Assembly (NCBI GenBank): GCA_029027985.1
Contig: CP119076.1
Location: 4,214,422-4,278,421, forward strand
Reading direction: 5' to 3'
Length of the DNA stretch: 64,000 nucleotides
Origin: Klebsiella aerogenes
GTDB lineage: Bacteria > Pseudomonadota > Gammaproteobacteria > Enterobacterales > Enterobacteriaceae
Part shown: positions 24,338 to 41,450 of the stretch, one piece after another
Position numbering within the stretch: the stretch's first letter is position 1
Layout: each line of letters opens with the position of its first letter
The notes under the pieces: model-generated
What the model was told of the DNA's origin: nothing
Seen by the model: only the letters and a program-made list of their open reading frames with translations
Databases searched by the model: none
Program-made: the position numbers and the translations under genes

Positions 24338-24348
24338 CGGAGTATTAT

Positions 24349-25092
24349 ATGCAAAGCCTGATGCCTCCGGTTGATGCGCCAAATAATGAATTCAGCGACG
24401 GTAACCCCTCGCTGGGGACGCTGGGAACCATTGTCAGAGCATTGTTCCTGAATAATGTGCAGGGTGCCATCCGGTCTGTACAAAGTGAACTGCTGTCTAT
24501 TCTGGCTGCTGCAAATATCAATCCTGATGGCGACAGTAATACGCAGGTTTTGCAGGCCATTAATAAAATCATGGTCGATTCAAATATGTCGGTACCTTAC
24601 GGCATACCGCTACCCTGGCCAACCAGTACACCGCCGACGGGATATTTAATCTGCAACGGTGCGTCATTCAGCGCGGCGACCTATCCGAATCTGGCTGCAG
24701 TTTATACCGGGGGCGTGTTACCTGATTTACGGGGACAAACCATCAAAGGGTTACCGGCCTCTGGCCGTGCGCTGCTCAGTCTTGAAGCTGACGGCAATAA
24801 AACGCATACCCATGGAGCATCAGCGTCCCAGACTGACCTGGGCACAAAAACCACCAGCGAAGACAACGAGCACGATCACGGCTGGGGGTCCGCGATGCAA
24901 AAACAAGGTGGCAGCGACCAGGAAGTTGGTAGCAATGGCGGTACTGGATTCGGGCGGACCTCTGTGCAACCCCCGCATTCACACACAGTTTATATCGGCC
25001 CACATGGTCACACGATAACTATTGATGCGTCCGGTAATTCCGAAACCACGGTTAAAAACATGGCATTTCATTATATTGTGAGGGCGGCATAA
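24349..25092 (+). CDS. Tail fibre protein with collar domain
   Basis: The 247-residue protein starts at ATG 24349 with CGGAG upstream. An N-terminal attachment part (residues 1-80) is followed by a tail-collar domain (PYGIPLPWPTSTPPTGYLICNGASF, PNLAAVYTGGVLPDLRGQTIKGL) and a His-rich tip (THTHG, DHG, HSHT, HGHT). That pattern resembles short receptor-binding fibres such as T4 gp12 and lambda side fibres, which bind metal at their tip. It would bind the host surface. A tail fibre assembly gene follows directly. Confidence 0.8.
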   Translation: MQSLMPPVDAPNNEFSDGNPSLGTLGTIVRALFLNNVQGAIRSVQSELLSILAAANINPDGDSNTQVLQAINKIMVDSNMSVPYGIPLPWPTSTPPTGYLICNGASFSAATYPNLAAVYTGGVLPDLRGQTIKGLPASGRALLSLEADGNKTHTHGASASQTDLGTKTTSEDNEHDHGWGSAMQKQGGSDQEVGSNGGTGFGRTSVQPPHSHTVYIGPHGHTITIDASGNSETTVKNMAFHYIVRAA

Positions 25093-25715
25093 TGTCTGGA
25101 GATATTAAAGCAGTATTTGACAGCAATCTGATTGCAACTCAGGCAGGTACTGTTCAGGTATTTCATTTTGATATGACTTCCCGTGAGTTTATCGGTACCG
25201 AGGATGTTTATATTCATTTTGGTGTCGGACTGCCTGCATTTTCATGCCTTGAAGAACCACCGGTACAAAGTGAATATCAGGTTGCTGTTCGTTCTGAAGA
25301 TAATTCGTCCTGGTCTGTTACTGATGATTATCGCGGTATCACCGTCTATGACATTCAGACGCTGGCCAGCCACGTTATTACCGAGCCCGGCCCCATACCT
25401 GACACTGTAACCACCTCTGCACCATCAACCCCATACGACAAATGGGACGGCTCTGCCTGGGTAACCGACGCAGACGCTCAGCATGCGGCTGATGTTGCTG
25501 TTGCTGATTTGCAGAAAAAAGAGCTGATTGCTCAGGCATCGGCTGATATTTCCATTCTTCAGGATGCAGTGGCTCTTAATATGGCGACTGATGAAGAAAA
25601 ATCCCGACTGACTTCTTTGCAGGCGTACCGAGTGCTAATTAACCGTGTTGATACTTCGCTTGCCCCTGATATTGTCTGGCCGCTTATTACCTATTCGGAG
25701 GTTGATAATGGCTAG
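25092..25715 (+). CDS. Tail fibre assembly chaperone
   Basis: The C-terminal half carries the Caudo_TAP family signature (TPYDKWDGSAWVTD, then DISILQDAVALNMATDEEKSRLTSLQAYRVLINRVD). The N-terminal half (FDSNLIATQAGTVQVFHFDM, YIHFGVGLPAFSCLEEPP) is the fibre-specific part. At 207 residues the length is typical. The chaperone helps fold or attach the preceding fibre. The gene overlaps the fibre stop and the start of the next fibre gene by eight bases. Confidence 0.83.
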   Translation: MSGDIKAVFDSNLIATQAGTVQVFHFDMTSREFIGTEDVYIHFGVGLPAFSCLEEPPVQSEYQVAVRSEDNSSWSVTDDYRGITVYDIQTLASHVITEPGPIPDTVTTSAPSTPYDKWDGSAWVTDADAQHAADVAVADLQKKELIAQASADISILQDAVALNMATDEEKSRLTSLQAYRVLINRVDTSLAPDIVWPLITYSEVDNG

Positions 25716-27936
25716 TTTACCTGAAACATCAGCATGGGAATCCGGTATTCATCAACTTGAAGAGTCAGAAAGAGCTAAAGCTGGTCCTGGTGGTATATTG
25801 AACCTTCAGGCGTTACAACTTGCCAATAGGACTAACTGGCTACGTAATCTGGTAGAATCAGCCAGTGATTACCGTGAATATACGTTCTATAAAACTGTAT
25901 CAGACCCGGATGGTACAATCACAGGCCTGGCTAATACGCCGCGTGGTAAAATATTTCGTGTTGCTGAGGGAGTTGGCAGCAGTTTGTCCTTCAATTATTA
26001 CCTCAATGATGATGGAGTGGCATTTAACATTGCATCCATGCCTGGCATGGGGTCAATAACTAATAACGTCCGCTTTTATACCATCTTGCCTGAGGCTCAA
26101 AATGATGTTCTTGTCGGCAATATTCTGAATGCTTCTAAATGCTGGGTAACGAGCATTGAAGATATCACCCTTGCAGACGAGTATATCAACAACGGCGGTA
26201 CGCTGGAGGCTACCGGGCGGAAAATTCCGTCGCAAGCGATCATTGACTTACTCCTGAGCATTATTCAGCAAATGCAAGGTCAGTCTCTCTATCGTGATGG
26301 TGTGGCCGGTTTTTCTGTCCCTGTTTTATCTGCAGACGGGACGGTGGTTGGATTCAAAGATGACGGGTCCCTTGCTGTCGGAGGCGTCGAAATACCGAGT
26401 TTCGAAAAAATCCCTCCTCGCGATGCCCCACTTTGTGTCCCCATCGTCGATTCGACACTGGATGGGTTCGTCGGTATCGGCTTTAACCCTAAAACAGGAT
26501 TAACGTTCGCGCTACTGGATGATGATTCCGTAGCGTATATCGCTGACCGAATCGGCGGAGGCGGAACTACTGTCCCAGACATCCGTGGGGAATGGGGGGC
26601 ACGTGTTTTTAATCCCCGGCACTATATCGGCGACGAATTCAATACGGCATCAATTTTAGATAAAGGCTCTCGCACTTTCGACGCGCGCCAACTGCGTGAT
26701 GGTGTACAGGATACGCTGGTTATGGCCTCGCCCCTGGCTACGGCAATCCGCATTGCGCTCGTATACGGGCAGTCAAATGCCGGGCTGGGAGGCTCAACCG
26801 GCCGCATTGTTGATACTGCACCCTGGGCTTTTTCTACATGGGGTTTTTCGGGAGTCAACGGCAGCAGCCAGCAGGGGACGGTTCATCTATCCCCTGCATC
26901 ACTCACCGATTTCGTACCAGCGCTGGATTACTCTGCGGCGCAGTCCCCGGCAATTTGCTCGGTGTACAGCATTACGCAACGAAACGCAGAGCTTGGACGG
27001 GATGACCCCGGCTATATTGCCGCAACAGCCTGGCATGGTAGTCAGCCAATCAGCTCATTTTACCCAAATGCACAGTCAGGCTACTGGAACTACGAGAATG
27101 CCGTGACGTTCCTGCAACGTGCTGTAGAGATTGCTGCGGAGTATGGGCGTACAGCTATTCTTGACGTGCTGCAATGGATTCAGGGAGAGGCAGGACCGAC
27201 CGGGCGGGAGAACTACGCCACGCAGCTGAATGATTTGTTCAATACGGTTCTTCCCGGTTTTAAAGCAGCAACTGGTCAGGCTGGTGACGTTAAGGTCGCT
27301 ATCTGGCAAACCAACATGAGCAAAGCAGCTAGCGGAGAGAACTACGCCAGCCAGGGACAATGGGACGTAGCCAACAACCGTTCTGATTGTTTCCTCGCAG
27401 GGCCTATGTATCAGTTTAAACTCGGCGACGAGTCAACAGGCCCGAGTACGGTCCACACCGGGCCTGAGGGTCGCCTGATGCTGGGTGAAACCTACGCGGA
27501 CGTTTACAGCAGTATCGTGGATAAAGGGGGATGGCAACCGGTACAGCCTGCATCTGCCGTACTGACCGGCAACGTTATTGATGTGACGTTAGAGGGGACA
27601 CCACTGGAGCAGTTCGGTGCGAAACTCGAAATCGATAGCGATTGGGTGCCTGATACGCTTAACCATGGATTTTCTTTCCCCGGCGCGACCATCACAGCTG
27701 TTGAAGTCACTGGAGTCAAAACAGCGCGCCTGACACTTTCGTCAGCGCCGGCGGCAGGTAACAGAACGCTGCGATATGCGATCGACGCATTTGATGATGT
27801 CACGTACTGGCCGACTCGCCGCGGTAACCTCATGGTCGAAACCAACCGAAAATCCTGGTGGAACGGGCAGGGGGTGAATATCCCGCGCAACGTTCGTCAC
27901 TATTTAATCCGATTTGAGATCACAGTTACGGAGTAA
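25708..27936 (+). CDS. Second tail fibre/spike with SGNH acetylesterase-like (SASA) domain
   Basis: The start is the ATG at 25708 (CGGAGG upstream), giving 742 residues. The N-terminus (SAWESGIHQLEESERAKAGPGGILNLQALQLANRTNWL) is a fibre attachment domain seen in enterobacterial phages. From about residue 345 there is a carbohydrate-esterase domain of the sialate O-acetylesterase type: VYGQSNAG with catalytic Ser356, IQGEAGPTG near 500 and His583 in TVHTGPEGR. The likely role is removal of acetyl groups from capsule or O-antigen. It sits after a complete fibre-plus-chaperone pair, like an added host-range module. The substrate is unknown. Confidence 0.78.
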   Translation: MASLPETSAWESGIHQLEESERAKAGPGGILNLQALQLANRTNWLRNLVESASDYREYTFYKTVSDPDGTITGLANTPRGKIFRVAEGVGSSLSFNYYLNDDGVAFNIASMPGMGSITNNVRFYTILPEAQNDVLVGNILNASKCWVTSIEDITLADEYINNGGTLEATGRKIPSQAIIDLLLSIIQQMQGQSLYRDGVAGFSVPVLSADGTVVGFKDDGSLAVGGVEIPSFEKIPPRDAPLCVPIVDSTLDGFVGIGFNPKTGLTFALLDDDSVAYIADRIGGGGTTVPDIRGEWGARVFNPRHYIGDEFNTASILDKGSRTFDARQLRDGVQDTLVMASPLATAIRIALVYGQSNAGLGGSTGRIVDTAPWAFSTWGFSGVNGSSQQGTVHLSPASLTDFVPALDYSAAQSPAICSVYSITQRNAELGRDDPGYIAATAWHGSQPISSFYPNAQSGYWNYENAVTFLQRAVEIAAEYGRTAILDVLQWIQGEAGPTGRENYATQLNDLFNTVLPGFKAATGQAGDVKVAIWQTNMSKAASGENYASQGQWDVANNRSDCFLAGPMYQFKLGDESTGPSTVHTGPEGRLMLGETYADVYSSIVDKGGWQPVQPASAVLTGNVIDVTLEGTPLEQFGAKLEIDSDWVPDTLNHGFSFPGATITAVEVTGVKTARLTLSSAPAAGNRTLRYAIDAFDDVTYWPTRRGNLMVETNRKSWWNGQGVNIPRNVRHYLIRFEITVTE

Positions 27937-27941
27937 CTATT

Positions 27942-28700
27942 ATGGCCGGTTTTAGAATTCCTCAACGATTTAACAATCCCGCATTACTGCCTGGGGGAAG
28001 TATCGCAGAGGCTTTAAAAGCCGATACGGGATTGCTTCACTGGTTTCAGGCTGACGCCAGCCATGTGACACTGAGTGGAAACGATATCCTTTCGTTTAAT
28101 GACAGAAAAGACACAGCCAGCAAACTTACTCGCTCATCCGATACCTCCGGGGCAACCTTGGTAAGTGAATTGTTCGGGGACTATTCTGGGGCCAGATTTA
28201 ATTCATCAGAGTCGGATCGCTCGATCTTCAATGGCGATGCACTGGATTTAACTCAGTCATTTAGTTGGGCTGGTGTTGCAACACTACGTACTCTGGCGGC
28301 AACCAGCAACCTTTGCGGTACTTTCACATCCCAATCAGTACGGGCCATTCTCAATGTATCGGTATCCGGTGGTAATGCAGGAAAATTAACGTTTCAGGTT
28401 GGTACGGCGACATGTGTTGGCCCGACGCTGGAGTTGGATACGCCGTTTGCGTTCGTATGTGGATACGACGGCACAAATATTTTCCTGCGCGTTAACGGCA
28501 TCGCCTCCTCTGTCGCCGCTGCCGGCAGTCCGTCATTATCAGCATTTGCCCTTGGCGCATTACCAGGCGGATCACAGTTCTGGGATGGTGATGTAGGTGA
28601 TTTATTTATGTGCAACGTTGCGCTGAATACAACAGATGGAGCCACTCTACTGAATAAAATTAAAGCATACCTTAAAGCCTGTTATGGAGTTACGCTTTAG
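27942..28700 (+). CDS. LamG/concanavalin A-like phage surface protein
   Basis: The 252-residue protein has an N-terminal Gly/Ser-rich lead and then a jelly-roll fold pattern: LLHWFQADASHVTLSGNDILSFNDRKD, SFSWAGVATLRTL, TPFAFVCGYDGTNIFLRVNG, QFWDGDVGDLFMCNVAL. These are typical of LamG-like lectin domains in phage adhesins. It is the last gene of the prophage, in the place that holds mom and com in Mu, and no modification gene is seen. It may decorate a fibre tip or act from the lysogen. Confidence 0.65.
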   Translation: MAGFRIPQRFNNPALLPGGSIAEALKADTGLLHWFQADASHVTLSGNDILSFNDRKDTASKLTRSSDTSGATLVSELFGDYSGARFNSSESDRSIFNGDALDLTQSFSWAGVATLRTLAATSNLCGTFTSQSVRAILNVSVSGGNAGKLTFQVGTATCVGPTLELDTPFAFVCGYDGTNIFLRVNGIASSVAAAGSPSLSAFALGALPGGSQFWDGDVGDLFMCNVALNTTDGATLLNKIKAYLKACYGVTL

Positions 28701-28835: not shown

Positions 28836-29699
28836 ATGGCCTATTCGATCGATATCATTTCCTGCATCACCGACCGCTTTATGGCGCTGACGGCGACCGA
28901 AAAACGCATCGCGCAATTTATTCTCGACGATGTCGCCGCCGCGGCGGAAATGCCGATTGCCGAACTGGCGCGCCTGACCCACGCCAGCCAGGCCTCAGTG
29001 ACCCGCTTCGCCCGCGCGCTGGGGTGTAAAGACGTACGTGAACTAAAAATGAAGCTCGCCCAGTCGCTGGCGATTGGTCAACGCTTTATTCTCGATGTGC
29101 CGGACCTGGAAGGGGTTCAGGGAATTTATGAATCCATCATCAGCGTGCTGGAGACCAACCGTCGGGCGCTGGATCTGGAGGCCCTGAAACGCGCGGTGGC
29201 CTGGATTAGCGACGCGCGCCAGGTGCTCGCCCTTGGCATGGGCGGCGGCTCGACCATCTGCGCGCAGGAGATCCAGTATCGCCTGTTCCGCCTCGGTTTA
29301 CCGGTCGTCAGCCAAAGCGATGGCCTGCTGGTGCGTATGATGAGCTCCGCGGTCACGGCGAAAGACGTGGTGATTGTGCTGTCGCTGGGCGGCTATACCA
29401 AAGAGATGATTGAAAGCGCCGCCATCGCCAGACAGTATGGGGCGAAAGTTATCGCCATTACCCCGCCGGATACGCCGCTGGCGGCGCAGGCCGATCTGCT
29501 GCTGCCGCTGCTGGTCAGCGAAAACGACTATATCTTCAAGCCCAGCGCCTCGCGCTACGCGATGCTGGCGATGGTCGATGTGCTGGCCACCGAACTGGCG
29601 ATGGCCAACAAACCGCAGGCGAAAGATCGTTTGCGCCGCATCAAACTGGCGCTCGACGACCACCGCGACGGCGTCGACCGCCTGCCGCTCGGCGACTAG
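28836..29699 (+). CDS. RpiR/MurR/HexR-family regulator with SIS domain
   Basis: An N-terminal helix-turn-helix of the RpiR type (MALTATEKRIAQFILDD, then IAELARLTHASQASVTRFARALG, about residues 16-70) is followed by a SIS sugar-phosphate-binding domain (ALGMGGGSTICAQEIQYRLFRLG, VIVLSLGGYTKEMIESA). Its 287 residues are complete. Such proteins sense phosphorylated sugars or sugar acids; HexR, for example, senses KDPG. It most likely controls the facing dgoA-dgoK-transporter genes. Its stop overlaps that of the aldolase gene by four bases. No ribosome site precedes the ATG, and the prophage end lies only 30 bases upstream, probably separating the gene from its own promoter. Confidence 0.85.
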   Translation: MAYSIDIISCITDRFMALTATEKRIAQFILDDVAAAAEMPIAELARLTHASQASVTRFARALGCKDVRELKMKLAQSLAIGQRFILDVPDLEGVQGIYESIISVLETNRRALDLEALKRAVAWISDARQVLALGMGGGSTICAQEIQYRLFRLGLPVVSQSDGLLVRMMSSAVTAKDVVIVLSLGGYTKEMIESAAIARQYGAKVIAITPPDTPLAAQADLLLPLLVSENDYIFKPSASRYAMLAMVDVLATELAMANKPQAKDRLRRIKLALDDHRDGVDRLPLGD

Positions 29700-30295
29700 T
29701 CGTCACAGGCGGCGATAAAGCGCTGCGCCTGCTGGCGTGTGCGCGCCAGCGACTGCCCGGCGCGGTACAGATCGCTGCCTAACCCAGCCCCCGCGCAGCC
29801 CGCCTGCCGCCAGCTAGCCAGATTCTCCGGCGTCACGCCGCCTACCGCCAGCACCGGAACCTCCGGCGGCAATACCGCTTTCAGCGCGCGAATATACTCC
29901 GGGCCGAATGCCGATGACGGGAAGATTTTCAGCCACTGCGCCCCGGCATCCAGCGCGCTAAACGCCTCCGATGCTGTCGCACAACCGGCGCAAACCAACA
30001 TCCCGCGGTCTACCGCACGGCGGATCACCGTCGGCGCCGTATTCGGCGTCACGATAAGCTTCGCCCCGGCGTCAGCCAGAAAATCGACCTGCTCAACCTT
30101 AAGCACCGTACCGGCGCCAATCACCGCGCGTTCGCCGAACTGGCGCACCATATCCGGAATACTGTGCTGCCAGTCCGGTGAGTTGAGCGGGATTTCGATA
30201 TAGCGGAAACCCGAATCGATCAGCGCCGCAATATGCTCCGCTGCCTCAACGGGAAGAATGCCGCGTAAAATCGCCACCAGTTTAACCTTGTCCAT
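29696..30295 (-). CDS. dgoA: 2-dehydro-3-deoxy-6-phosphogalactonate aldolase (DgoA-type)
   Basis: This is a class I aldolase of the KHG/KDPG family, about 200 residues. Glu34 lies in YIEIPLNSP, GAGTVLK is at 61-66 and the Schiff-base Lys123 is in WLKIFPSSAFGP. The EIPLNSP and FPSSAFGPEYI blocks are nearly identical to E. coli DgoA as I remember it, more so than to Eda. It splits a 6-phospho-2-keto-3-deoxy sugar acid into pyruvate and glyceraldehyde 3-phosphate. Start is the ATG at 30295; a TTG one codon earlier also exists. It overlaps dgoK. No galactonate dehydratase is present, so the true substrate may come from another sugar acid. Confidence 0.87.
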   Translation of the reverse strand: MDKVKLVAILRGILPVEAAEHIAALIDSGFRYIEIPLNSPDWQHSIPDMVRQFGERAVIGAGTVLKVEQVDFLADAGAKLIVTPNTAPTVIRRAVDRGMLVCAGCATASEAFSALDAGAQWLKIFPSSAFGPEYIRALKAVLPPEVPVLAVGGVTPENLASWRQAGCAGAGLGSDLYRAGQSLARTRQQAQRFIAACDD

Positions 30296-31154
30296 CAATC
30301 ATCCTCGCCATACCAGAAAGAAACGCCGCATCGCCGGTGCAGCAGGAAACCGTCATCCCACGCGCCAGCATCGCCCGCTGGTAGCGGGCATTCAGCGCCG
30401 GATCGCCAACCAGCGCCACGCGGCTGGCGCGGTAGCGCTCGCTAAAGGTCGCCACCTCCGCGCCAATCAGCAACCCGGAGAGATAATCGCTAACCGAAGT
30501 GGGCGCCAGCGCCCCCAACACCCGTGCGGCGCGGGCGCTAAACAGCCCGGCCAGCAGCGCTGGTTGAGTCAGCCCTTTTTCCAGGCCGAGTGCAAAAGCG
30601 GTCTCATCAATCTGCTGCGCGGGCAGCTGTTTACCCAGCAGCGAGTGGTTAAGCAGAAGGTGGTGCAGTTCGCCGGTCATTGCGGTGGCGAAATGACGCA
30701 CCACGCCATCCTGTACCTGTACCCATTTGCAGTGGGTGCCGGGCATCACGTAACACTCTGCGGGCATCAGTTGCCAGGCTCCCAGCAACTGCGTCTCTTC
30801 GCCGCGCATCACATCATAATCCCCGGCCTGCGCCACCTTGAGTCCCGGTACGATCCACACGTTTTCAGCCACCGCATACAGTTCGCCGCCAGGGGCGTCT
30901 ATCGCCAGCGGGCAAGCCAGATAGGGCACCGGGCGCCAGCCAGCGTCGCTGCCGATCATTCCCGCCATCACTACCGGCAGAGAATCATCGCCGCGCCAGG
31001 GCGCCAGATGTTGGTTGAAAATGGCCTCAGCGCTTTGCCCGTTCAGACGCGTCACCCCGTAGGGCAACTGTCGGCTATCAATACACTCCCCGTTACGGAT
31101 ACGCCAGGCGCGCAGCTGCGTCGAGCCCCAGTCAACGGCAATATACTCGTTCAT
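30282..31154 (-). CDS. dgoK: 2-keto-3-deoxy sugar acid kinase (DgoK-type)
   Basis: This 290-residue kinase is of the DgoK family: IAVDWGSTQLRAWRI at the N-terminus is the phosphate-binding motif, followed by VVMAGMIGSDAGW, VPYLACPL and MPGTHCKWV. It phosphorylates 2-keto-3-deoxygalactonate in the E. coli galactonate pathway. Here it lies between the symporter gene (10 bases upstream, AGGGG ribosome site) and the aldolase gene (14-base overlap), forming one operon. It therefore probably acts on the keto-deoxy acid made by this cluster. Confidence 0.87.
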   Translation of the reverse strand: MNEYIAVDWGSTQLRAWRIRNGECIDSRQLPYGVTRLNGQSAEAIFNQHLAPWRGDDSLPVVMAGMIGSDAGWRPVPYLACPLAIDAPGGELYAVAENVWIVPGLKVAQAGDYDVMRGEETQLLGAWQLMPAECYVMPGTHCKWVQVQDGVVRHFATAMTGELHHLLLNHSLLGKQLPAQQIDETAFALGLEKGLTQPALLAGLFSARAARVLGALAPTSVSDYLSGLLIGAEVATFSERYRASRVALVGDPALNARYQRAMLARGMTVSCCTGDAAFLSGMARMIDGQG

Positions 31155-31163
31155 CGTCGCCCC

Positions 31164-32651
31164 TTAACCACGCGAGGTGTGGCGTTTGCCGATCGGCAAC
31201 GGCGGCGGCGTTGGGCGGCTTTCACGCTCGCGGGTGATCATCTCCAGCGCCTGCTCGCGGCTCATGCTGCTGGCCGGCGTCAGCAGCGTCACCACAACCG
31301 ATGCCACCAGGCTGCTCAGTACCGCCGGAATGCACGGGTTGCCCCAGAAGGCCAACCAGTCGCTATCCATCAGCACCGCAATTGATGCCCCAGCGCCGCC
31401 AGCCAGTGCGGCGACCGCACCTTGCCAGTTAAAGCGGTTCCAGAAACGGCCAAGCATGGTGCAGATAAACATCCCGGACATAATCATCGAAATCATTTTG
31501 GTGATGTAACTGATGATGTCGTTGGAAGTCAGCGCGAACAGCAGCGCCAACGCAATCACCAGCACGAGGAAAATCCGCGACAGACGAATCGCCTTCTCCG
31601 GCGCAGGCATATGGCCAGTAACCAGGGTATAGAGGTCACGCAGCATAATGGATACCGCGGCGATAGCATCAGAGCTTCCGGAAGACATGTTCGCCGACAT
31701 CCCGGCAATCAGGATCGCCATCGCCAGCACCGGCGGCAGCACCTGAGTGGCAAACAGGAAAGCGAAACCGCTGTTTTCCAACTGCGGGTTCATGGTCCAT
31801 ACCGCCATGCCGATGATCGCCGGCAGGAAGGAGAAGCCCAGATACAGCAGGCCGGTAATAGTGAAGGACTGGCGTACCGACGAGACGGTTTTCGCCGAAT
31901 AAATACGCTGGCGATAGGAAGGGGTCGCCAGCACGCCGACGCCGATAACCATTGCCAGCGATAGCGCAGGCAGCACGCCTAATTTGTCGACCGCAAACAG
32001 GCTTTGCGCCGCCGGGTCTACCGCCTGCTGAATGTGGCTCCAGCCGCCAACATGATGCACCGCCAGTACCGCCATTAAAATAAAGCCTACGAACAATACG
32101 ATCGATTGAATGGTATCGATCCACACCACCGCGGAATAGCCGCCGATACCGACATAAACCACAAAGGCCAGCGCGATAATAATTTTCGCGACATTAATAT
32201 CAATGCCGCTGGCCCACGCCAGATATAAGCCGCCGCCTAATATATGCGCCCCCAGCCAACCGATAGAGGCAATAAAAATAAGCACCGCGACGAGGTTTTT
32301 AATAATTTTGCTGCCGCCGGTGTAATAAGACATTTCTTCACTCATGGTCATAAAGCGAAGTTTACGTACCGGGGCGAACAGCCATGCCACCAGCAGAATG
32401 CCCACCGCGCCGCCGAGGCCGTACAGCATTCCGGCCCAGCCGTTACTGTAGCCAAAGCCGACGGCGCCGACGCTGGAGCCGGTACCCACCATGGTGCCGA
32501 CCGTCGACCCGAGGGTCAGGATCATCGGCAGCGAACGGCCGCCAAGTAAAAAATCTTCACCGGTTTTTTGTTTACGCGAAACGTACCAGCCTAAGGTAAT
32601 CATCGCGCAGGCATAAATGGAAAACCAAATCAGAAATGACATATTATTCAT
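31164..32651 (-). CDS. Sodium:solute symporter (SSS family)
   Basis: The 495-residue membrane protein has about 13 hydrophobic segments and the SSS core motifs: GRSLPMILTLGSTVGTMVGTGSSVGAVGFGY near the N-terminus, GYSAVVWIDTIQS near 175 and ATPSYRQRIYSAK near 260. It imports an organic solute with sodium. As first gene of the transporter-kinase-aldolase unit, it likely takes up the sugar acid or its N-acetyl form. A 9-bp palindrome precedes the start by about 22 bases. The exact substrate cannot be read from the sequence. Confidence 0.85.
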   Translation of the reverse strand: MNNMSFLIWFSIYACAMITLGWYVSRKQKTGEDFLLGGRSLPMILTLGSTVGTMVGTGSSVGAVGFGYSNGWAGMLYGLGGAVGILLVAWLFAPVRKLRFMTMSEEMSYYTGGSKIIKNLVAVLIFIASIGWLGAHILGGGLYLAWASGIDINVAKIIIALAFVVYVGIGGYSAVVWIDTIQSIVLFVGFILMAVLAVHHVGGWSHIQQAVDPAAQSLFAVDKLGVLPALSLAMVIGVGVLATPSYRQRIYSAKTVSSVRQSFTITGLLYLGFSFLPAIIGMAVWTMNPQLENSGFAFLFATQVLPPVLAMAILIAGMSANMSSGSSDAIAAVSIMLRDLYTLVTGHMPAPEKAIRLSRIFLVLVIALALLFALTSNDIISYITKMISMIMSGMFICTMLGRFWNRFNWQGAVAALAGGAGASIAVLMDSDWLAFWGNPCIPAVLSSLVASVVVTLLTPASSMSREQALEMITRERESRPTPPPLPIGKRHTSRG

Positions 32652-32673
32652 TGCTCACATCCAGACGTAATAA

Positions 32674-32699
32674 ATAATATTCGTGCCGCTGAATATTAT
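32674..32699 (-). promoter_or_regulatory. Palindromic operator candidate upstream of the symporter gene
   Basis: ATAATATTC (32674-32682) and GAATATTAT (32691-32699) are perfect reverse complements with an eight-base spacer. The site lies 22 bases before the symporter start and is the best RpiR-type operator candidate of the unit. A related GAATAA dyad lies at 34777-34793. Confidence 0.55.
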
Positions 32700-32714
32700 G
32701 AGTTAACAGGAACC

Positions 32715-32820
32715 ATGCCTGAAAAAAGGCATAGCGAACCCAGTGGCACCGATTTATTTATTCACTCTGGTGCCGATATCACACTTTTTTGACGATCCCT
32801 CCCGGGAAGGGAGGGATTTA
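32715..32820 (-). terminator. Hairpins between the RidA and symporter genes
   Basis: Three inverted repeats fill the gap: ATGCCT/AGGCAT (32715-32732), GGCACC/GGTGCC (around 32745-32774) and ATCCCTCCC/GGGAGGGAT (around 32796-32817). The last has a T-run only on the plus side (TTATTTTT), so for the minus-strand genes it is at best an attenuator or RNA-processing site. Confidence 0.4.
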
Positions 32821-32836
32821 TTTTTGGCGTCGGACG

Positions 32837-33235
32837 CTACAGACGCGCGGCGCTAAAACAGGTCACATCAACTTCAACTTTACAATCCACCACCAGATCC
32901 GCCACGCAGCAAATACGCGCCGGCGGGTTATCGCCAAAGAACTCGCGGAATACTTTATTGAACGACTGGAAGTAGCGCGAATCAGTGAGGATCACTTTGA
33001 CGTGCACCACATCCGCCAGGCCGTAGCCTGCTTCGGTCATGATGTCGACGCAGTTCTGAATCGCCAGACGCGACTGCTCGACGATCCCGCCTTCCACCAC
33101 TTCGCCATTTTTCATCGGCGTTTGCCCGGAGACATACAACCAGCCGCCCGCTTCCACCGCGCGGGCGAAAGGCAGATGCTGACCGCCGGTTCCGGTACCG
33201 CCTTCTACGCCATAACGTTTAATACTCATACTCAA
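32837..33235 (-). CDS. RidA-family protein (imine/enamine deaminase-like)
   Basis: The 132-residue protein has the RidA/YjgF pattern: FARAVEAGGWLYVSGQTP, VKVILTDSRYFQSFNKVFREFF, and NPPARICCVADL with the conserved Arg, then CKVEVDVTCF. RidA proteins hydrolyse reactive enamine or imine intermediates released by PLP enzymes. Its place beside the deacylase gene and near the PLP enzyme at 34880 fits that job. AAGGAG precedes the ATG, and the deacylase gene ends four bases upstream, so the two are cotranscribed. Confidence 0.85.
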   Translation of the reverse strand: MSMSIKRYGVEGGTGTGGQHLPFARAVEAGGWLYVSGQTPMKNGEVVEGGIVEQSRLAIQNCVDIMTEAGYGLADVVHVKVILTDSRYFQSFNKVFREFFGDNPPARICCVADLVVDCKVEVDVTCFSAARL

Positions 33236-33239
33236 CTCC

Positions 33240-34679
33240 TTAGTCCATCCGACGGCGCAGGAAACGCCCTGCCCGCCCGGTAATTTTTTTGTCGCTGCCG
33301 TAGCTCATCACGCCATTTACCATCACCGCCTCAATACCGTCCGCCGGTCGTTTCGGGTCGGCGAAGCTGGCGACATCGCGCACCGTCTGCGGGTCAAACA
33401 GCACCAGATCGGCAAAGTAGCCGATTTTCACCAGCCCGCGATCCGCCAGCTGGAAGCGTGCCGCCGACAGCCCGGTCATCTTGTGCACTGCGGTCGTCAG
33501 CGGGAATAGCTGCTCGTCGCGACTGTAGTGGCCGAGCACGCGCGGGAAGGCTCCCCACAGGCGCGGATGCGGCATCGGATCGTTCGGTAGGCCGTCCGAA
33601 CCGATCATGGTCACCGGATAGCGCATCACTCTCCGTACATCCTGCTCGTCCATGTTGTAGTAGATAGCGCCAGCGGGCATCAGCCGCGCCGCGGCATCAT
33701 GCAGACTGACCTGCCACTCATCGGCGATCTGCCGCAGCGTTTTCCCCGCCTGCTCCGGCTGCGCTTCTGACCAGGTGATCACGATATCGAACTCATCGGT
33801 GACCTGCTTCATATCCAGCGTCGACGAGCTGGCGGAATAGGGGTAACAGTCGCAGGCGATATCCTGCTGCTGGCGCATCTCATCAAAGAACGCCAGCGTC
33901 TCTTTGGTACGCCCCCAGTTTTTCGCTCCGGCGCATTTGTGATGCGAGACCACCACCGGCACGTTGCCGTGACGACCGATGCGGAAGGCTTCGTCCAGCG
34001 CCTCAAGAATCGGCTCAAACTCCGAGCGTAAATGAGTCGTGTAAACGCCCTGTCCCGCGGCCAATTCTTCCGCCAGCGCCATCACCTCTTCGGTCGTCGA
34101 CTGGAAGGCGCTGGCGTAGGCCAGGCCGGTGCTCAGGCCCAGCGCGCCCTGGCGCAGCGCATCGCGCAATTGTACGCGCATACCGGCGATTTCCGTCTCG
34201 TTCGCCGGACGGAACAGGTCATCCATATGATTATTGCGCAGCGCGGTATGGCCAATCAGCGTGCCGACGTTTAGCGATGGCCGCGCCGCCTCCACCGCAT
34301 GGGCGTAAGCCTCCACGGTGGGATAGATAAAGTGCTGCGGCTCGCCGAGCAGATTCATCGGGTCCGGTACCTCGCCGCGCATGGTGGCGGTCGCCGCGCT
34401 GATCCCGCAGTTGCCGACGATCACCGTCGTCACCCCCTGACTGAGCTTCGGCAGATACTCCGGCATACGAATAACGTTGATATCGTCATGCGTGTGGACA
34501 TCGATAAAACCTGGTGCCAGTACCCGCCCCTGGCCGTCAATCTCCCGCTCCGCCGCGACGTCCAACGCCGGGGCGATAGCGATAATCCGATCGCCCTTCA
34601 CCGCCACATCAGCACGGTATTGCGGCCCGCCGCTCCCGTCGATCACCGTGACGTTTTTGAAAAGCCAGTCAACTTTCAT
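33240..34679 (-). CDS. N-acyl-D-amino-acid deacylase family amidohydrolase
   Basis: A 479-residue metal-dependent amidohydrolase of the D-aminoacylase family. The metal-binding HTH motif is at His62 and His64 (GFIDVHTHDD). VVVSHHKCAGAKNWG and SDGLPNDPMPHPRLWGAFPRVLGHY are both family hallmarks. It removes an acyl group (usually acetyl) from the nitrogen of a D-amino acid or an amino-sugar acid with the same stereochemistry. Start is the ATG at 34679 (MKVDWLF) with GGGAG upstream; the frame is open 13 codons further but without support. It is first in the RidA-symporter direction, divergent from the PLP enzyme gene. Confidence 0.85.
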   Translation of the reverse strand: MKVDWLFKNVTVIDGSGGPQYRADVAVKGDRIIAIAPALDVAAEREIDGQGRVLAPGFIDVHTHDDINVIRMPEYLPKLSQGVTTVIVGNCGISAATATMRGEVPDPMNLLGEPQHFIYPTVEAYAHAVEAARPSLNVGTLIGHTALRNNHMDDLFRPANETEIAGMRVQLRDALRQGALGLSTGLAYASAFQSTTEEVMALAEELAAGQGVYTTHLRSEFEPILEALDEAFRIGRHGNVPVVVSHHKCAGAKNWGRTKETLAFFDEMRQQQDIACDCYPYSASSSTLDMKQVTDEFDIVITWSEAQPEQAGKTLRQIADEWQVSLHDAAARLMPAGAIYYNMDEQDVRRVMRYPVTMIGSDGLPNDPMPHPRLWGAFPRVLGHYSRDEQLFPLTTAVHKMTGLSAARFQLADRGLVKIGYFADLVLFDPQTVRDVASFADPKRPADGIEAVMVNGVMSYGSDKKITGRAGRFLRRRMD

Positions 34680-34718
34680 AGCAATTACTCCCTTTCGACA
34701 TGCCGACAAGTTAACCAT

Positions 34719-34879
34719 TTACAAGCGCAAAAAACAGTGGAAAACTACGCAAAATCCAGATCATTTTGTGATACTTTTATTCAAAACGAATAACAATATT
34801 ATATTAAAACAATATTTATCAATTAGTTATAACTGATACCGCAATAACATCCGATTATAAACCCTGTAAGGATAGTGTT
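34719..34879. promoter_or_regulatory. Divergent control region between deacylase and PLP enzyme genes
   Basis: The AT-rich 160-base interval holds the dyad TTATTC-AAAAC-GAATAA (34777-34793) and two CAATATT repeats (34794 and about 34810). The GAATA half-site also occurs in the palindrome before the symporter gene, so one regulator, probably the RpiR protein, may bind both. Confidence 0.45.
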
Positions 34880-36100
34880 ATGAAATACCATTCCACTCCG
34901 CTCATCCCGCACAAATCCGCCGTCATGTCCGCACCTGCGAATCTGTTGGCCGAAGAGGTTTGTCTGCCCGCCGCGCTGCTCAAAAGAAAGGCGCTGGAAA
35001 ATAATATTTCCTGGATGCAACGCTATGCCGACGCCCGCGGCGTATCGCTGGCGCCGCACGGTAAAACCACGATGACGCCATGGATTTTTCAGGCGCAGCA
35101 ACAGGCGGGGGCGTGGGGGATCGGCGTCGGCAGCGCGTGGCAGGCCAGCGCGGCGATGGCCAGCGGCATTCATCGTGTTCTGATGGTCAATCAGCTGGTC
35201 GGCAAAGCCAATATGCAGGTCGTCGCCCAGCTAAAAGCGCACTACCGGGCGGTCGATTTTATCTGCTGCGTCGATAGCGAAAGCAACGTCCGCACCCTCT
35301 CAGCTTTCTTCGCCGATCGGGGCCAGACGCTGGATGTGTTGATCGAGCTTGGCGTACCGGGCGGGCGCTGCGGCTGTCGCAGCGTTGATGACGCGCTGGC
35401 GCTGGCGAATTTGGTTAGCGGCCTGCCGGGCCTGCGGCTACGCGGCCTGGAATTGTATGAAGGGGTGCTGCACGGCGACGATCCACAGCCGCAGGTGGAA
35501 GCGCTACTGCGGCAGGCCGCAGCGCTTGCCTGCCGTATGGAACCGCTAGTTGACGGCGAATTCATCCTCACCGGCGCGGGCACCGTGTGGTATGACGTGG
35601 TCTGCAACATCTGGCTGGCGGCGGAAAAACCGCGCCATTGCCGGATAGTGATCCGCCCGGGGTGTTATATCACTCACGATCGCGGGATCTACGATCTCGC
35701 TCAGCAGGAGTTGATCGCTCGCGATCCGATAGCCTGCGATCTCGCCGGCGATCTCACCTCGGCGCTGGAACTGATGGCAATGGTGCAATCGGTACCGGAG
35801 GCGGATCGTGCGGTGGTGAATTTCGGCAAGCGCGACTGCGCCTTTGACGCCGGGTTACCACAGCCGATCGCCCACTATCGCAACGGGCGGGCATTGCCGC
35901 TGCGGGCGGAGGCGATCGTCAGCATCGGTATTATGGATCAGCACTGTATGTTGCGTCTGGCGCCGGACAGCGATGTACAGGTCGGCGATATTCTGCTGTT
36001 CGGCACCTCGCACCCGTGCCTGACTTTTGACAAGTGGAAGACGCTGCTGCTGGTTGACGACGACTACAACGTGCTGGACGAGCTCGATACGCTGTTTTGA
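34880..36100 (+). CDS. DSD1-type PLP enzyme (D-threonine aldolase / D-serine dehydratase-like)
   Basis: A 406-residue fold-type III PLP protein. An alanine-racemase-like N-terminal domain has the PLP Lys62 in SLAPHGKTTMTPW. A C-terminal D-serine-dehydratase-like domain has the metal-binding pattern MDQHCML and SHPCLTFDKW. Relatives are annotated as amino acid deaminases, D-threonine aldolases or D-serine dehydratases. In this cluster the likely reaction is beta-elimination of ammonia from a D-amino acid or D-amino-sugar acid to a 2-keto(-3-deoxy) acid, with RidA helping the imine step. AAGGA lies before the ATG. Divergent from the deacylase gene; the substrate is inferred. Confidence 0.8.
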   Translation: MKYHSTPLIPHKSAVMSAPANLLAEEVCLPAALLKRKALENNISWMQRYADARGVSLAPHGKTTMTPWIFQAQQQAGAWGIGVGSAWQASAAMASGIHRVLMVNQLVGKANMQVVAQLKAHYRAVDFICCVDSESNVRTLSAFFADRGQTLDVLIELGVPGGRCGCRSVDDALALANLVSGLPGLRLRGLELYEGVLHGDDPQPQVEALLRQAAALACRMEPLVDGEFILTGAGTVWYDVVCNIWLAAEKPRHCRIVIRPGCYITHDRGIYDLAQQELIARDPIACDLAGDLTSALELMAMVQSVPEADRAVVNFGKRDCAFDAGLPQPIAHYRNGRALPLRAEAIVSIGIMDQHCMLRLAPDSDVQVGDILLFGTSHPCLTFDKWKTLLLVDDDYNVLDELDTLF

Positions 36101-36123: not shown

Positions 36124-37131
36124 TTACCGCAAAGCGCAAATCTCATCATGCAATGAACGGCTGATGGTCACTCCCTGTCGTTCGCTCTGCTGGCGACAGG
36201 CGAAACGCCGCTCGCCCGGCAGCCGCGCCCCCTGCTCCTGCATGCCGCTAAACAGCGTTTCGGCGCGCGCCAGTTGCTCCTCCGCCTGCGCGCCCAGAAA
36301 ACGCTGCGGGTCCAGCGCCAGGATCAGCTCGCCGCCGTAGGGTAAACCGCCCGCGCCGTTATCCCACGCCAGCGATTCGGCGCTGGTCATATCGCCGATA
36401 AGCGGCCCGGCCAGCAGCTCGACCATCGCCGCCAGCGCCGAGCCCTTATGGCCGCCAAAGGTCAACATCGCGCCGTTCAGCACTTCAGCGGCTTCGGTCG
36501 TCGGCTGCCCCTGGCTATCGATGCCCCAGCCTTCCGGCAAGGGTTTACCGGCGCGCTGATGCAGCTGGATCTCGCCGCGCGCCGCGGCGCTGGTCGCCAT
36601 ATCAAAAATAAACGGCGGCTTTTCCCGCCGCGGCCAGCCAAAGGCGATAGGGTTAGTGCCGAACAATGGGCGAATGCCGCCCGCTGGCGCGACCCAGGCA
36701 TGGCTTGGCGTGCAGGCCAACCCCACCAGACCCGCGTCAGTCAGCGGTTCGATATCCGCAAACAGCGCGGAAAAATGGACGCAACGGTTAATCGCCAACG
36801 CCGCGATGCCGCTGTGCCGCGCCTTCTCCACCAGCAACGGCAACGCGCGTTCAAAGGCCAGCAGCGAAAAGGCGCCGTCGGCATCCGCCCGCACAATCGC
36901 CGGCGCCCGATCGTTAATCTGCGGTTCGGCGTCGGGCGATACCTTGCCTTTACGCAAGGTATCGACAATGCCCAATAACCGCCACAGACCGTGGGAAGCG
37001 CAGCCGTCGCGCTCCCCGGAGGCCACATTGCGGGCGATAGCCGCCGCATGGTCGGCGCTGAATCCATTGGCGCTTAGCACCTGCAACGCCAGGGCATAAG
37101 CTTCAGGTAACGAAAGGGTTACCGACTCCAT
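36124..37131 (-). CDS. Ldh/MDH2-family dehydrogenase, probable imine (pyrroline-2-carboxylate) reductase
   Basis: The 335-residue protein is of the malate/L-lactate dehydrogenase type 2 family: ARNVASGERDGCASHGLWRL, INRCVHFSALFADIEPL, GTNPIAFGWPR and FIFDMATSAAARGEI are the usual blocks. The group includes delta1-pyrroline-2-carboxylate/piperideine-2-carboxylate reductases, which use NADPH, alongside malate and ureidoglycolate dehydrogenases. It lies last in the operon after the permease gene, and the hydroxyproline context favours the imine reductase role. GGAGAG precedes the start. The stop faces that of the PLP enzyme gene 23 bases away. Confidence 0.75.
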   Translation of the reverse strand: MESVTLSLPEAYALALQVLSANGFSADHAAAIARNVASGERDGCASHGLWRLLGIVDTLRKGKVSPDAEPQINDRAPAIVRADADGAFSLLAFERALPLLVEKARHSGIAALAINRCVHFSALFADIEPLTDAGLVGLACTPSHAWVAPAGGIRPLFGTNPIAFGWPRREKPPFIFDMATSAAARGEIQLHQRAGKPLPEGWGIDSQGQPTTEAAEVLNGAMLTFGGHKGSALAAMVELLAGPLIGDMTSAESLAWDNGAGGLPYGGELILALDPQRFLGAQAEEQLARAETLFSGMQEQGARLPGERRFACRQQSERQGVTISRSLHDEICALR

Positions 37132-37142
37132 AGTGCTCTCCT

Positions 37143-38744
37143 CTACTCTTCTTCGTCTCCGCTAAAGTTAGCTTGCGGCAGGCAGCTACGCGCGCCCCAG
37201 TAGTAAATCCCTAACGACATCGCCGCCACCAGCACCGTATCCCAGGGGTGACCAATGACATTAAGCCCGCCGAAGCTTCCCAGCCAGGAAAAGAGGATAA
37301 TCAGCGCATAAAAAACAATCAGCCACAGCGACGACTTCACCTGCTGCGCCAGGCTAACGGTATGTTCCGGCACCTTACCTTTACACATTACGTACACCAC
37401 AAACATCACAATCTGCAGCCCCAGCAGCCAGGAGAGCGTACTCCAGCCGGACCAGTAGACAATCAACGCCGAGATCATAAACGACACCGGGCCGATGATG
37501 CCGAAGGCGCGCACGCGGAACGGACGCGGGAGATCGGGCGCATTGCGGCGTAACCCGGCGGCGGTCACCGGCGCGATGGCGTAACTTAGCACCAATGCCG
37601 CCGACACCACGCTGATCAGCTGCTCCCAGGAGGGGAACGGCAGCGTCCAGAAGATAGAAAGCGCGAAGGTCAGCCACAGCGCCGGGCGTGGAATACCGGA
37701 CGCTTTATCGATATGGGTAAAGGCCTTAAAGAAGGTTCCCGCCTTCGCCCAGCCGTAGATCACGCGCGGCGTCGCGTTCATATAAATATTGCCGGTACCG
37801 CTCGGCGAAATAATCGCGTCGCTAATGACCATAAAGGCCAGCCAGCCCATCCCGAGGGTAATGGCGATATCGCGATACGGCAGCGAGAACTGTTTGCTCA
37901 CCTCTGCCCAGCCGCCATGCAGCATCTCGCCAGGAATGCTGCCGAGAAACGCCAGCTGTAACAGCACATAGATAATCGTCGACAACACCACCGATAAAAT
38001 CAGCGCGATGGGAATAGTCCGCTGCGGTTTTTGCACCTCGCTTGCCACCGAGATAATCGGCGTCAGGCCAAGGTAGGCAAAGATAATACCGCCCGCGCTG
38101 ATCGCCGCTTCCACCCCGGACATGCCAAACGGCGCAATACCCTGAGCATGTAAGTTTTCTGGTTTAAAGAAGGTGAATAACGTCACCACCACCAGCAGCG
38201 GCACAAGAAACTTGAGCACGCTGATGAAGTTGTTCGAGCGGGCGAAGGTTTTCACGCTGTAGTAATTGAGCGCGAAGAAGAAGCACAGCAGCAGGAACTG
38301 CACCACCCACCCCAGTAGCGTCGGCGCGCTGGATCCCGGCTGGGTTAGCGCCGGGAACCAGGCGGCGGCATATTGTCGGGCGGCGACGATTTCAATTGAG
38401 ATCAGACTGGAGAAGGCGATCAGAGTGATAAACCCCAGCAGATAGCCCATCAGCTCGCCGTGGGAAAAAACCGGGTAGCGAATAATACCGCCAGCGCGCG
38501 GCAGGGCCGCCCCCAATTCGCAGTAGACAATCCCCAGCAGCAGCACCGCAAAACCACCGATCACCCACGAGGCAATACCGGCCGGGCCAGCTATCGACGC
38601 GACGTGGCTGGCGGCGAATAACCATCCGGAGCCAAAAATTGCCCCCAGGCCAATAAACGTGAGATCCGTTAGGGTCAGCTGTTTTTTAAACTTACCCGAC
38701 TCAACAACGCGGGTTTGACTGTTATGCGTAGAGTGAATGGTCAT
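37143..38744 (-). CDS. APC-family amino acid permease, probable hydroxyproline transporter
   Basis: The 533-residue membrane protein has about 12-14 hydrophobic segments and the APC superfamily opening (LTLTDLTFIGLGAIFGSGWLFAASHVAS). It resembles the aspartate:proton symporter/YhdG-type branch. It sits between the semialdehyde dehydrogenase and reductase genes in the hydroxyproline operon, so uptake of hydroxyproline or proline analogues is likely, by position only. The C-terminus is acidic (SGDEEE). The neighbouring genes are 11 and 15 bases away. Confidence 0.78.
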   Translation of the reverse strand: MTIHSTHNSQTRVVESGKFKKQLTLTDLTFIGLGAIFGSGWLFAASHVASIAGPAGIASWVIGGFAVLLLGIVYCELGAALPRAGGIIRYPVFSHGELMGYLLGFITLIAFSSLISIEIVAARQYAAAWFPALTQPGSSAPTLLGWVVQFLLLCFFFALNYYSVKTFARSNNFISVLKFLVPLLVVVTLFTFFKPENLHAQGIAPFGMSGVEAAISAGGIIFAYLGLTPIISVASEVQKPQRTIPIALILSVVLSTIIYVLLQLAFLGSIPGEMLHGGWAEVSKQFSLPYRDIAITLGMGWLAFMVISDAIISPSGTGNIYMNATPRVIYGWAKAGTFFKAFTHIDKASGIPRPALWLTFALSIFWTLPFPSWEQLISVVSAALVLSYAIAPVTAAGLRRNAPDLPRPFRVRAFGIIGPVSFMISALIVYWSGWSTLSWLLGLQIVMFVVYVMCKGKVPEHTVSLAQQVKSSLWLIVFYALIILFSWLGSFGGLNVIGHPWDTVLVAAMSLGIYYWGARSCLPQANFSGDEEE

Positions 38745-38759
38745 GGTGATGCCCTTGCG

Positions 38760-40364
38760 TCAATGAGAGGGGGAAATCGCTTCCCGGGTCCACTGGCCGT
38801 TGACCAGGCGCAGCAGGTTCAATGGGTTCGCATCCTGCAGCGCTGGTGGTAACAGGGCGGCGGGCGCGTTTTGCAGGCATACCGGGCGCAGAAAACGCTC
38901 AATCGCCCGACTGCCGACCGACGTCCCGCGTGCGTCGGTCGTCGCTGGCCACGGTCCGCCGTGCACCATCGCATCGCACACTTCCACCCCGGTGGGATAA
39001 CCGTTAAACAGCACCCGTCCGGCTTTTTCGCTCAGCAACGGCAGCAGGTTCGCCGCCAGCGGGCCGTCGTCCGCATCGGCATGCAGCGTGGCGGTAAGCT
39101 GCCCCTGAAGCCCTTTCACCACCGCCTGAAGCTGCGCGTCGTCATCCACTTCCACCAGCAGCGACAACGGGCCGAAGACTTCGGTTTGCAGCAGCGTATC
39201 CTGCGCCAGCAGATCCTCAGCCTGAGCCTGCCACAACAGGGTTTGCGCCTGTCCCTCGCTGGCGGCGAGACCGCTTGCCAACAACGCAACGCGCGGATGC
39301 GCCTGCAATGCCGCGACACCCTGGCGATAGTGACTGAGCGTTGGCGCATTGAGCAGCACCTGCGGCGCGGACGCCTCCACCGCGGTACACAGCGCCGATT
39401 TAAAGCGTTCCAGTCCTTCGCCGCGCAGCGCCAGAATCAGCCCCGGACGCGTGCAGAACTGTCCGCCGCCGAGGGTAAACGACGCCAGCAGATCTTTCGC
39501 CAGCACGTCGGCCCGCGTCCTCAGCGCCTGCGGCAGAATAATCAGCGGGTTAATCGCCGACATTTCGGCAAACAGCGGGATCGGCTGCGGGCGCTGCTGC
39601 GCCAGCTGATACAGCGCCTTGCCGCCAGCCAGCGAGCCGGTAAAGCCGACCGCCTGGATCGCCGGATGGCGCACCAACTCCGCGCCGATGTCGGTGCCGA
39701 AAATCATATTGAACACGCCGCCGGGCAACCCGCACCGCGCAACCGCCCGGGCGATCGCCTCCGCGGTCAGCTCGGCGGTCGCCATGTGGCCCGGATGGGC
39801 CTTCACCACCACCGGACAACCGGCCGCCAGCGCCGAGGCGGTATCGCCGCCCGCGGTGGAGAAGGCCAGCGGGAAGTTACTGGCGCCGAACACCGCCACC
39901 GGTCCCAGCGCGAATTGATACTGACGCAGATCCGGACGCGGCAACGGTTGGCGGTCGGGCAACGCGGTATCAATACGGGCGGCGAAGGTATCGCCACGCA
40001 GGATAACCTCGGCAAACATCCGCAACTGGCCGCTGGTACGCGCCCTTTCCCCCTGCAGCCGCGCCAGCGGCAGCGCGGTCTCCTGCCCGGCGATGGCGAA
40101 GAACGCCTCGCCCAGCGCATCCAGTTCATCGGCAATGGCGCAGAGAAAATGCGCCCGCTGCTGCGGCGTGGTGTGCGAATAGGCGGTAAAAGCGCTCTGC
40201 GCCGCTTGCGCCGCCAGCGCGGCCTCCTCACGGGAGGCCGGGTAAAAGCGGTGGCCGGTGGCTTCGCCGTCCACCGCCCGCAGGCTCAATAGCGTCGCCT
40301 CACCGCTGGCAATGCGGCGTCCGGCAATAAATTGCCGTCCCGCCGTGGTCTGAGATGAATTCAT
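38760..40364 (-). CDS. 2-oxoglutarate semialdehyde dehydrogenase (NADP-type aldehyde dehydrogenase)
   Basis: This 534-residue aldehyde dehydrogenase belongs to the long NADP-dependent branch that oxidises alpha-ketoglutarate semialdehyde (2,5-dioxopentanoate) to 2-oxoglutarate. The catalytic Cys304 is in GGGQFCTRPG, the general-base Glu267 in FAEMSAINP, and the cofactor loop FTGSLAGGKAL at 241-251. It completes hydroxyproline breakdown, feeding the TCA cycle. It follows the deaminase gene with AGGAGC as ribosome site, 14 bases downstream. Confidence 0.88.
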   Translation of the reverse strand: MNSSQTTAGRQFIAGRRIASGEATLLSLRAVDGEATGHRFYPASREEAALAAQAAQSAFTAYSHTTPQQRAHFLCAIADELDALGEAFFAIAGQETALPLARLQGERARTSGQLRMFAEVILRGDTFAARIDTALPDRQPLPRPDLRQYQFALGPVAVFGASNFPLAFSTAGGDTASALAAGCPVVVKAHPGHMATAELTAEAIARAVARCGLPGGVFNMIFGTDIGAELVRHPAIQAVGFTGSLAGGKALYQLAQQRPQPIPLFAEMSAINPLIILPQALRTRADVLAKDLLASFTLGGGQFCTRPGLILALRGEGLERFKSALCTAVEASAPQVLLNAPTLSHYRQGVAALQAHPRVALLASGLAASEGQAQTLLWQAQAEDLLAQDTLLQTEVFGPLSLLVEVDDDAQLQAVVKGLQGQLTATLHADADDGPLAANLLPLLSEKAGRVLFNGYPTGVEVCDAMVHGGPWPATTDARGTSVGSRAIERFLRPVCLQNAPAALLPPALQDANPLNLLRLVNGQWTREAISPSH

Positions 40365-40378
40365 ACTCGCTCCTGTGT

Positions 40379-41299: not shown

Positions 41300-41410
41300 G
41301 CTCGGTTCCTTGTCGTCATTTTGTTAAGTCGAGGTGAATGAATGGTGAATATTCACTGACAGATTGACGTTTCGCGGAACCGGCGGCTTGTCGGTTTTCC
41401 CTCAATACGA

Positions 41411-41436
41411 TGACGAAATTAGCACAGTCGACAAAA
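41411..41436. promoter_or_regulatory. Operator candidate upstream of the deaminase gene
   Basis: TGACGAAA at 41411-41418 is followed by GACAAAA at 41430-41436, an 18-base direct repeat of the kind AraC proteins bind. The same octamer forms the palindrome at 42495-42517 before the epimerase gene. Confidence 0.5.
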
Positions 41437-41450
41437 GTGTGAGCCAGCGT

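Follow-up and report, generated by a model that had tools for sequence, protein, structure and literature searches.

An ong-type gene cluster of Klebsiella aerogenes with a galacto-type kinase and aldolase, possibly serving N-acetyl-D-galactosaminate

This work concerns a stretch of 64,000 nucleotides from Klebsiella aerogenes (referred to throughout as the window; positions 4,214,422-4,278,421 of contig 1 in a genome of 5.0 Mb), in which seven intact genes form one compact cluster at 28836-36100 (Table 1). Taken alone, the assignment of this cluster to an ong-type pathway for an N-acetylated 2-amino-2-deoxy-aldonic acid appears highly probable. The substrate that we favour is N-acetyl-D-galactosaminate (GalNAc1A), probably taken besides N-acetyl-D-glucosaminate (GlcNAc1A), a fuller statement that we hold with about even confidence. 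It is equally a matter of even chances that such a galacto variant arose when a dgoK-dgoA pair, of opposite specificity at C4, took the kinase-aldolase place in a GlcNAc1A cluster. The general kind of pathway is mostly known and has been reported before from this lineage; the new element is its consistently galacto-type lower half.

A probable ong-type pathway in the window

In Pseudoalteromonas prydzensis ACAM 620, genetics and biochemistry established the ong cluster as the route for GlcNAc1A (PMC9537276). OngB deacetylates GlcNAc1A, OngC converts glucosaminate to 2-keto-3-deoxygluconate (KDG) and ammonia, and KdgK phosphorylates KDG, the upper reactions and the kinase step on GlcNAc1A being demonstrated in Pseudoalteromonas; OngD, a RidA protein, is required for growth, an SSS protein is the importer and OngR, of the RpiR family, is the repressor (PMC9537276). 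This is the marine oxidised-chitin route to which an earlier note on this DNA had pointed, and the order of steps which that note had proposed (import, deacetylation, deamination dependent on pyridoxal 5'-phosphate (PLP), phosphorylation and aldol cleavage) indeed matches it. All the genes named in the note were found present, intact and in place.

Homologues of OngB, OngC, OngD, OngR and the SSS transporter occur in both the Pseudoalteromonas and the Klebsiella clusters, and the kinase follows the transporter in both. By contrast, the Klebsiella kinase is DgoK (PF05035) and not the PfkB-type KdgK, which is why we file the cluster as a variant of ong; a DgoA-type aldolase is added, and neither GH20 (OngA) nor the TonB receptor (OngOT-1) is found among the cluster genes, the genome having one GH20 frame elsewhere. 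Klebsiella and Serratia have already been named as ong carriers with an extra aldolase gene, kdgA, and bacteria carrying both ong and lpmo were also mentioned (PMC9537276). The portion available of a study of chitin use in Aeromonas reported no clear OngB or OngC (PMC11653859).

From a mechanistic point of view, the SSS symporter would import the N-acetylated acid, the OngB-type zinc enzyme would strip the acetate, and the OngC-type PLP enzyme would eliminate ammonia to give a 2-keto-3-deoxy acid, which the kinase would phosphorylate and the aldolase cleave to pyruvate and glyceraldehyde 3-phosphate. Repression of the cluster would fall to the RpiR/SIS protein. RidA may clear the imine and the SIS domain may sense the phospho-keto acid, as the earlier note had suggested. 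The D-glucosaminate route of Salmonella likewise deaminates glucosaminate with a PLP enzyme and ends in aldol cleavage, but phosphorylation comes first there, the substrate is not acetylated and other enzyme families are used.

Table 1. Cluster features in window coordinates, with the match or observation on which each assignment rests
Feature	Position	Strand	Basis
OngR-type RpiR/SIS regulator, probable repressor	28836..29699	+	HTH_6 and SIS domains
DgoA-type 2-dehydro-3-deoxy-6-phosphogalactonate (KDPGal) aldolase	29696..30298	-	NCBIfam NF006600, 298.8 bits (cut-off 207)
DgoK-type 2-dehydro-3-deoxygalactonokinase	30282..31154	-	PF05035, 311.9 bits
SSS-family symporter (OngIT-type)	31164..32651	-	PF00474, 141 bits
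RidA-family protein (OngD-type)	32837..33235	-	PF01042, 81.9 bits
OngB-type N-acetyl-aldosaminate deacetylase, D-aminoacylase-like amidohydrolase	33240..34718 (likely start 34679)	-	PF07969
Probable control region in the gap between the divergent deacetylase and PLP enzyme genes	34719..34879	.	position only
OngC-type / DSD1-type fold-III PLP enzyme (deaminase)	34880..36100	+	PF14031, 61 bits; PF01168, 43.9 bits

The complex of the Pseudoalteromonas deacetylase (PpOngB) with GlcNAc1A has been solved. PpOngB, like two of its homologues, uses GlcNAc1A but no N-acetyl-D-amino acids, whereas two D-aminoacylases show the opposite specificity, the difference being marked by Ser292 and Gln298 (PMC12017989). 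Among the substrates given in the Results of that study, GalNAc1A does not appear. The window deacylase scored 552 bits with PpOngB (9kb1) against 473 bits with the D-aminoacylase of A. faecalis, and it has the PpOngB residue at positions 68, 70, 97, 116, 194, 222, 226, 252, 254 and 285, as well as at 290, 291, 292, 298, 368, 370 and 379. All the GlcNAc1A-contact, metal and catalytic residues that were tested are thus PpOngB-like, including Ser290-292, Gln298 and Glu226, in line with the proposed route; where the D-aminoacylase signature has Thr at 292 and a residue other than Gln at 298, the window enzyme has Ser292 and Gln298. It differs from PpOngB in having His253, Tyr347 and Asn348 in place of Leu, His and Gly.

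The best match in the PDB is 9g5m/9gv8 from Klebsiella pneumoniae, named only 'amidohydrolase family protein'. The window deacylase is near-identical to 9g5m and shares 98% identity with its counterpart in K. pneumoniae ATCC 13883. Seven stretches in which 9g5m differs from the window protein were chosen; the K. pneumoniae copy L007 has all seven of them, and three other copies hold none, two and one. Because the 9g5m chain begins at Met14 of the window frame, the likely start of the gene lies at 34679. Our search found no paper naming 9g5m or 9gv8, and whichever epimer is used, the present assignment gives these unnamed structures a likely function.

The regulator's best NCBIfam match is HexR, at 194.7 bits and so below the cut-off of 296; the RidA gene is one of six of its family in the genome; and the solved chain nearest to the PLP enzyme is 3gwq (362.6 bits), named D-serine deaminase. 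Deacylase and RidA genes are 4 bases apart and symporter and DgoK genes 9 bases apart, while the DgoK and DgoA frames overlap by 17 bases. The PLP enzyme gene diverges from the deacylase gene, and the regulator gene is convergent with that of DgoA. In the gap between ongB and ongC, no operator palindrome common to the loci examined was found.

The earlier note had called for a search for the same families in other genomes, and in this search their association went beyond chance. Among loci selected by their deacylase, PLP enzyme, RidA and regulator accompany it in 53 of 56 other enterobacterial loci and in 24 of 25 from further families of the order. The window deacylase itself served to find the enterobacterial set, which does not represent a random sample; for the remaining set, 28 regions were retrieved from among the 33 matched genomes of the order besides the window genome (all but G430, G479, G633, G681 and G699). 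A symporter stands at the same place in the cluster in 41/56 and 20/25 loci, respectively. Gene content and shared order are in this respect direct observations.

A galacto-type kinase and aldolase

The lower half of the pathway differs between the two groups of loci. Enterobacterial loci carry DgoK and DgoA in 32 of 56 cases and KdgK or Eda within the stretch in none. In the other families, 14 of 25 loci have a PfkB kinase (KdgK), always directly behind the symporter, and 10 have an Eda-type aldolase with it; neither is found in 11, and DgoK in none. The absence of a pair is defined here by BLAST thresholds over stretches of about 7-20 kb, in which diverged kinases or aldolases may be hidden. 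Mixing of the galacto and gluco pairs was seen in 0/56 enterobacterial loci and 0/25 of the others. The close order symporter, DgoK, DgoA was kept in 35/35 DgoK rows (the 32 loci and L142-L144); this count, like the 36-row counts below, includes L143 and L144, rows that stem from the L054 and L020 genomes or from close copies of these, as shown by identical DgoK rows for both and by matching places for L143. Clusters of the other families such as L136 and L134 share the core genes and the order of kinase then aldolase after the symporter, but theirs is the gluco-type pair: in L136, KdgK reaches 390.3 bits with NF052444 (just below the cut-off of 400) and Eda 303.4 bits with NF004325 (cut-off 241), and GH20 comes next. 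The galacto-type similarity that the earlier note had considered its weak point is a consistent feature of enterobacterial clusters.

Both proteins of the window are of the galacto type in their nearest solved chains, which are the E. coli KDPGal aldolase 2v81 for DgoA (283 bits) and the 2-oxo-3-deoxygalactonate kinase 3r1x for DgoK (306 bits). The two candidate intermediates, KDG and 2-keto-3-deoxygalactonate, differ only at C4. The sites Ile12/Val20 and Val154/Thr161 separate the E. coli KDPGal aldolase from the aldolase for 2-keto-3-deoxy-6-phosphogluconate (KDPG) in stereoselectivity (PMC4915726). Ile12 and Val154 were found in 36/36 cluster DgoA rows, the window copy included, while the cluster Eda rows have the KDPG determinants Val and Thr in 10/10. 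The DgoA rows from dgo operons of other genomes have Ile in 25/25 and Val in 24/25, the remaining row being gapped there. Such residue signatures, and the difference in kinase and aldolase, are observed; the epimer we infer from them.

The cluster itself contains neither a galactonate dehydratase nor a galactonate transporter, as the earlier note had pointed out for the dehydratase. The dgo operon of the same genome lies away from the cluster, near G000:C1:9.6-14.5 kb, and comprises a GntR-type regulator, dgoK, dgoA, a galactonate dehydratase (NF010624, 689.5 bits) and a transporter (TIGR00893). The ong-type cluster shares with it the order of dgoK and dgoA and the same 17-base overlap, but not the dehydratase, the MFS transporter or the GntR-type regulator. 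This shared overlap suggests that dgoK and dgoA may have been captured as a pair. In the DgoK tree (a quick one, like all the trees here, with SH-aLRT support only), two label changes are required between the cluster copies and those of dgo operons, with which a single origin may still be compatible.

KdgK (522.8 bits, cut-off 400) and Eda are also encoded outside the cluster. Dedicating a further pair to KDG would therefore be redundant, and the retention of a galacto-type pair makes most sense with a galacto acid as substrate. In favour of this reading, too, DgoK is entirely missing from 22/23 marine genomes examined. The dedicated DgoK and DgoA would then serve a galacto branch, while KDG formed from GlcNAc1A would be handled by the KdgK and Eda encoded elsewhere. 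If so, Klebsiella, Raoultella, Buttiauxella and their relatives gain a substrate for whose breakdown no paper was found in the open-licence literature, although an earlier description is possible, and a pathway would have switched epimer by way of its last two enzymes as a unit. In the same literature, supplements aside, no description of dgoK in an ong context was found; the only paper recovered was PMC9537276, which makes no mention of dgoK.

Which epimer is used

Several observations weigh against a galacto substrate. We know of no natural source of GalNAc1A. Besides, the OngB pocket residues, Asn348 and His253 included, are the same in enterobacterial clusters whether or not DgoKA is present. 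Asn348 recurs in two loci of another order, L083 and L084, the latter with KduI and an enolase-type dehydratase in its vicinity, which points to KDG. Genome-wide counts of DgoK and of lytic polysaccharide monooxygenase (LPMO) covered 50 of the 56 loci (all but L009, L050, L055, L058, L061 and L062), the window genome and 29 others. Among the enterobacterial genomes without DgoKA in the cluster, 9/24 have no DgoK anywhere (some are drafts, and one has a broken deacetylase frame); these nine nevertheless share the OngB pocket, so that the product there should be KDG.

The strongest alternative, a serious one to which we give a somewhat less than even chance, is that the same ong pathway takes GlcNAc1A only and that the captured DgoK and DgoA now act on KDG and KDPG in place of KdgK and Eda. 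The conserved GlcNAc1A contacts of OngB are in line with it, as are the relatives devoid of DgoK and the occurrence of LPMO in 9/28 DgoKA-type genomes. Klebsiella and Serratia were moreover counted as GlcNAc1A users, with an aldolase gene named kdgA (PMC9537276), and the preference of the E. coli KDPGal aldolase is finite, with a tabulated log E of -2.3 (PMC4915726). However, this alternative has to account for both KDPGal determinants being kept throughout the cluster DgoA rows, for the KdgK and Eda already present in the genome, and for the lack of any LPMO match in the window genome. If it holds, galacto-type enzymes work in a gluco pathway with their galacto stereo-determinants retained; either outcome bears on the name kdgA for the Klebsiella and Serratia gene. 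The best overall fit would be an upper half accepting the gluco acid, and possibly either epimer, to which DgoKA adds a galacto branch.

The family names suggest ordinary N-acyl-D-amino acid breakdown through a D-aminoacylase and a D-serine-type deaminase, and the Pseudoalteromonas OngC also deaminates D-serine and D-threonine (PMC9537276). We reject this possibility as very improbable in view of the Ser292/Gln298 signature and of the higher score to PpOngB, itself without detectable activity on N-acetyl-D-amino acids (PMC12017989); it would also leave the sugar-acid kinase and aldolase of the cluster without a role. Still harder to credit, and likewise rejected, is a broken or split galactonate cluster with chance neighbours: DgoK and DgoA are present with the overlap of the dgo operon, but dehydratase and galactonate transporter are missing while a full dgo operon lies elsewhere, the cluster DgoK rows stand apart from the dgo-operon rows on the tree, and 32 of 56 related loci show the same arrangement.

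Two further ideas were discarded. Asn348 is ruled out as a marker of galacto use: it is present in 36/36 DgoKA rows, in each of the 23 enterobacterial rows that lack DgoKA and could be read, and in L083 and L084; KdgK-type rows have Gly or Cys there. In the OngB tree, the enterobacterial clade comprises 34 DgoKA rows, 23 rows without a pair and no KdgK row, every KdgK row lying outside. Reliance of DgoKA-less clusters on a DgoK encoded elsewhere was not shown either, only 15/24 of these genomes having one: 8/9 where the DgoKA-less cluster has a symporter and 7/15 where it has none (Fisher p 0.08; the Fisher tests given here ignore relatedness). DgoK is entirely missing from 22/23 marine genomes examined.

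As regards the origin of the substrate, LPMO was found in 8/24 enterobacterial genomes without DgoKA and in 16/23 genomes of other families, the latter differing from the 9/28 of DgoKA-type genomes with a Fisher p of 0.012. The window genome has three membrane PQQ (pyrroloquinoline quinone) dehydrogenases, which might conceivably oxidise amino sugars outside the cytoplasm.

Symporter variation and neighbouring genes

Enterobacterial symporters fall into two deep clades of 15 and 28 rows. Those of the window and of K. pneumoniae L007 lie in different clades and are about 75% identical; since their deacylases are 98% identical, the symporter seems to have been exchanged on its own. No link between symporter clade and kinase was seen, as each clade includes DgoKA-bearing and DgoKA-less loci. 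No symporter was found in the stretch in 15/56 enterobacterial loci (L022, L029, L032, L045, L051 and others), which keep only the deacylase, the PLP enzyme, RidA and, contig permitting, the regulator; in L022, a phosphotransferase system (PTS) EIIC gene and a GH4 gene lie nearby. In L085 and L086, from another family of the class, the deacylase gene stands beside frames that we take, from their starts, to be a gluconate-type permease and an FAD oxidase instead of an SSS symporter. The deacylase frame of L060 (Kluyvera genomosp. 3 YDC799) is split, and this copy is probably broken.

Phage tail genes occupy 22623-28700 of the window (PHROGs: baseplate wedge, tail fibre assembly and tail fibre) and stop about 130 bases short of the regulator, so that the cluster lies directly beside a probable prophage; the window yielded no tRNA gene. 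Beside the PLP enzyme, at 36124-44639, are genes for an Ldh_2 dehydrogenase, an amino-acid permease, an aldehyde dehydrogenase, a DHDPS-family protein, an AraC/PAS protein, a proline racemase and an FAD oxidase, a set which we presume, from the usual roles of these families, to serve hydroxyproline-type catabolism. Five of these genes also adjoin the ong cluster in L015, L055 and L058.

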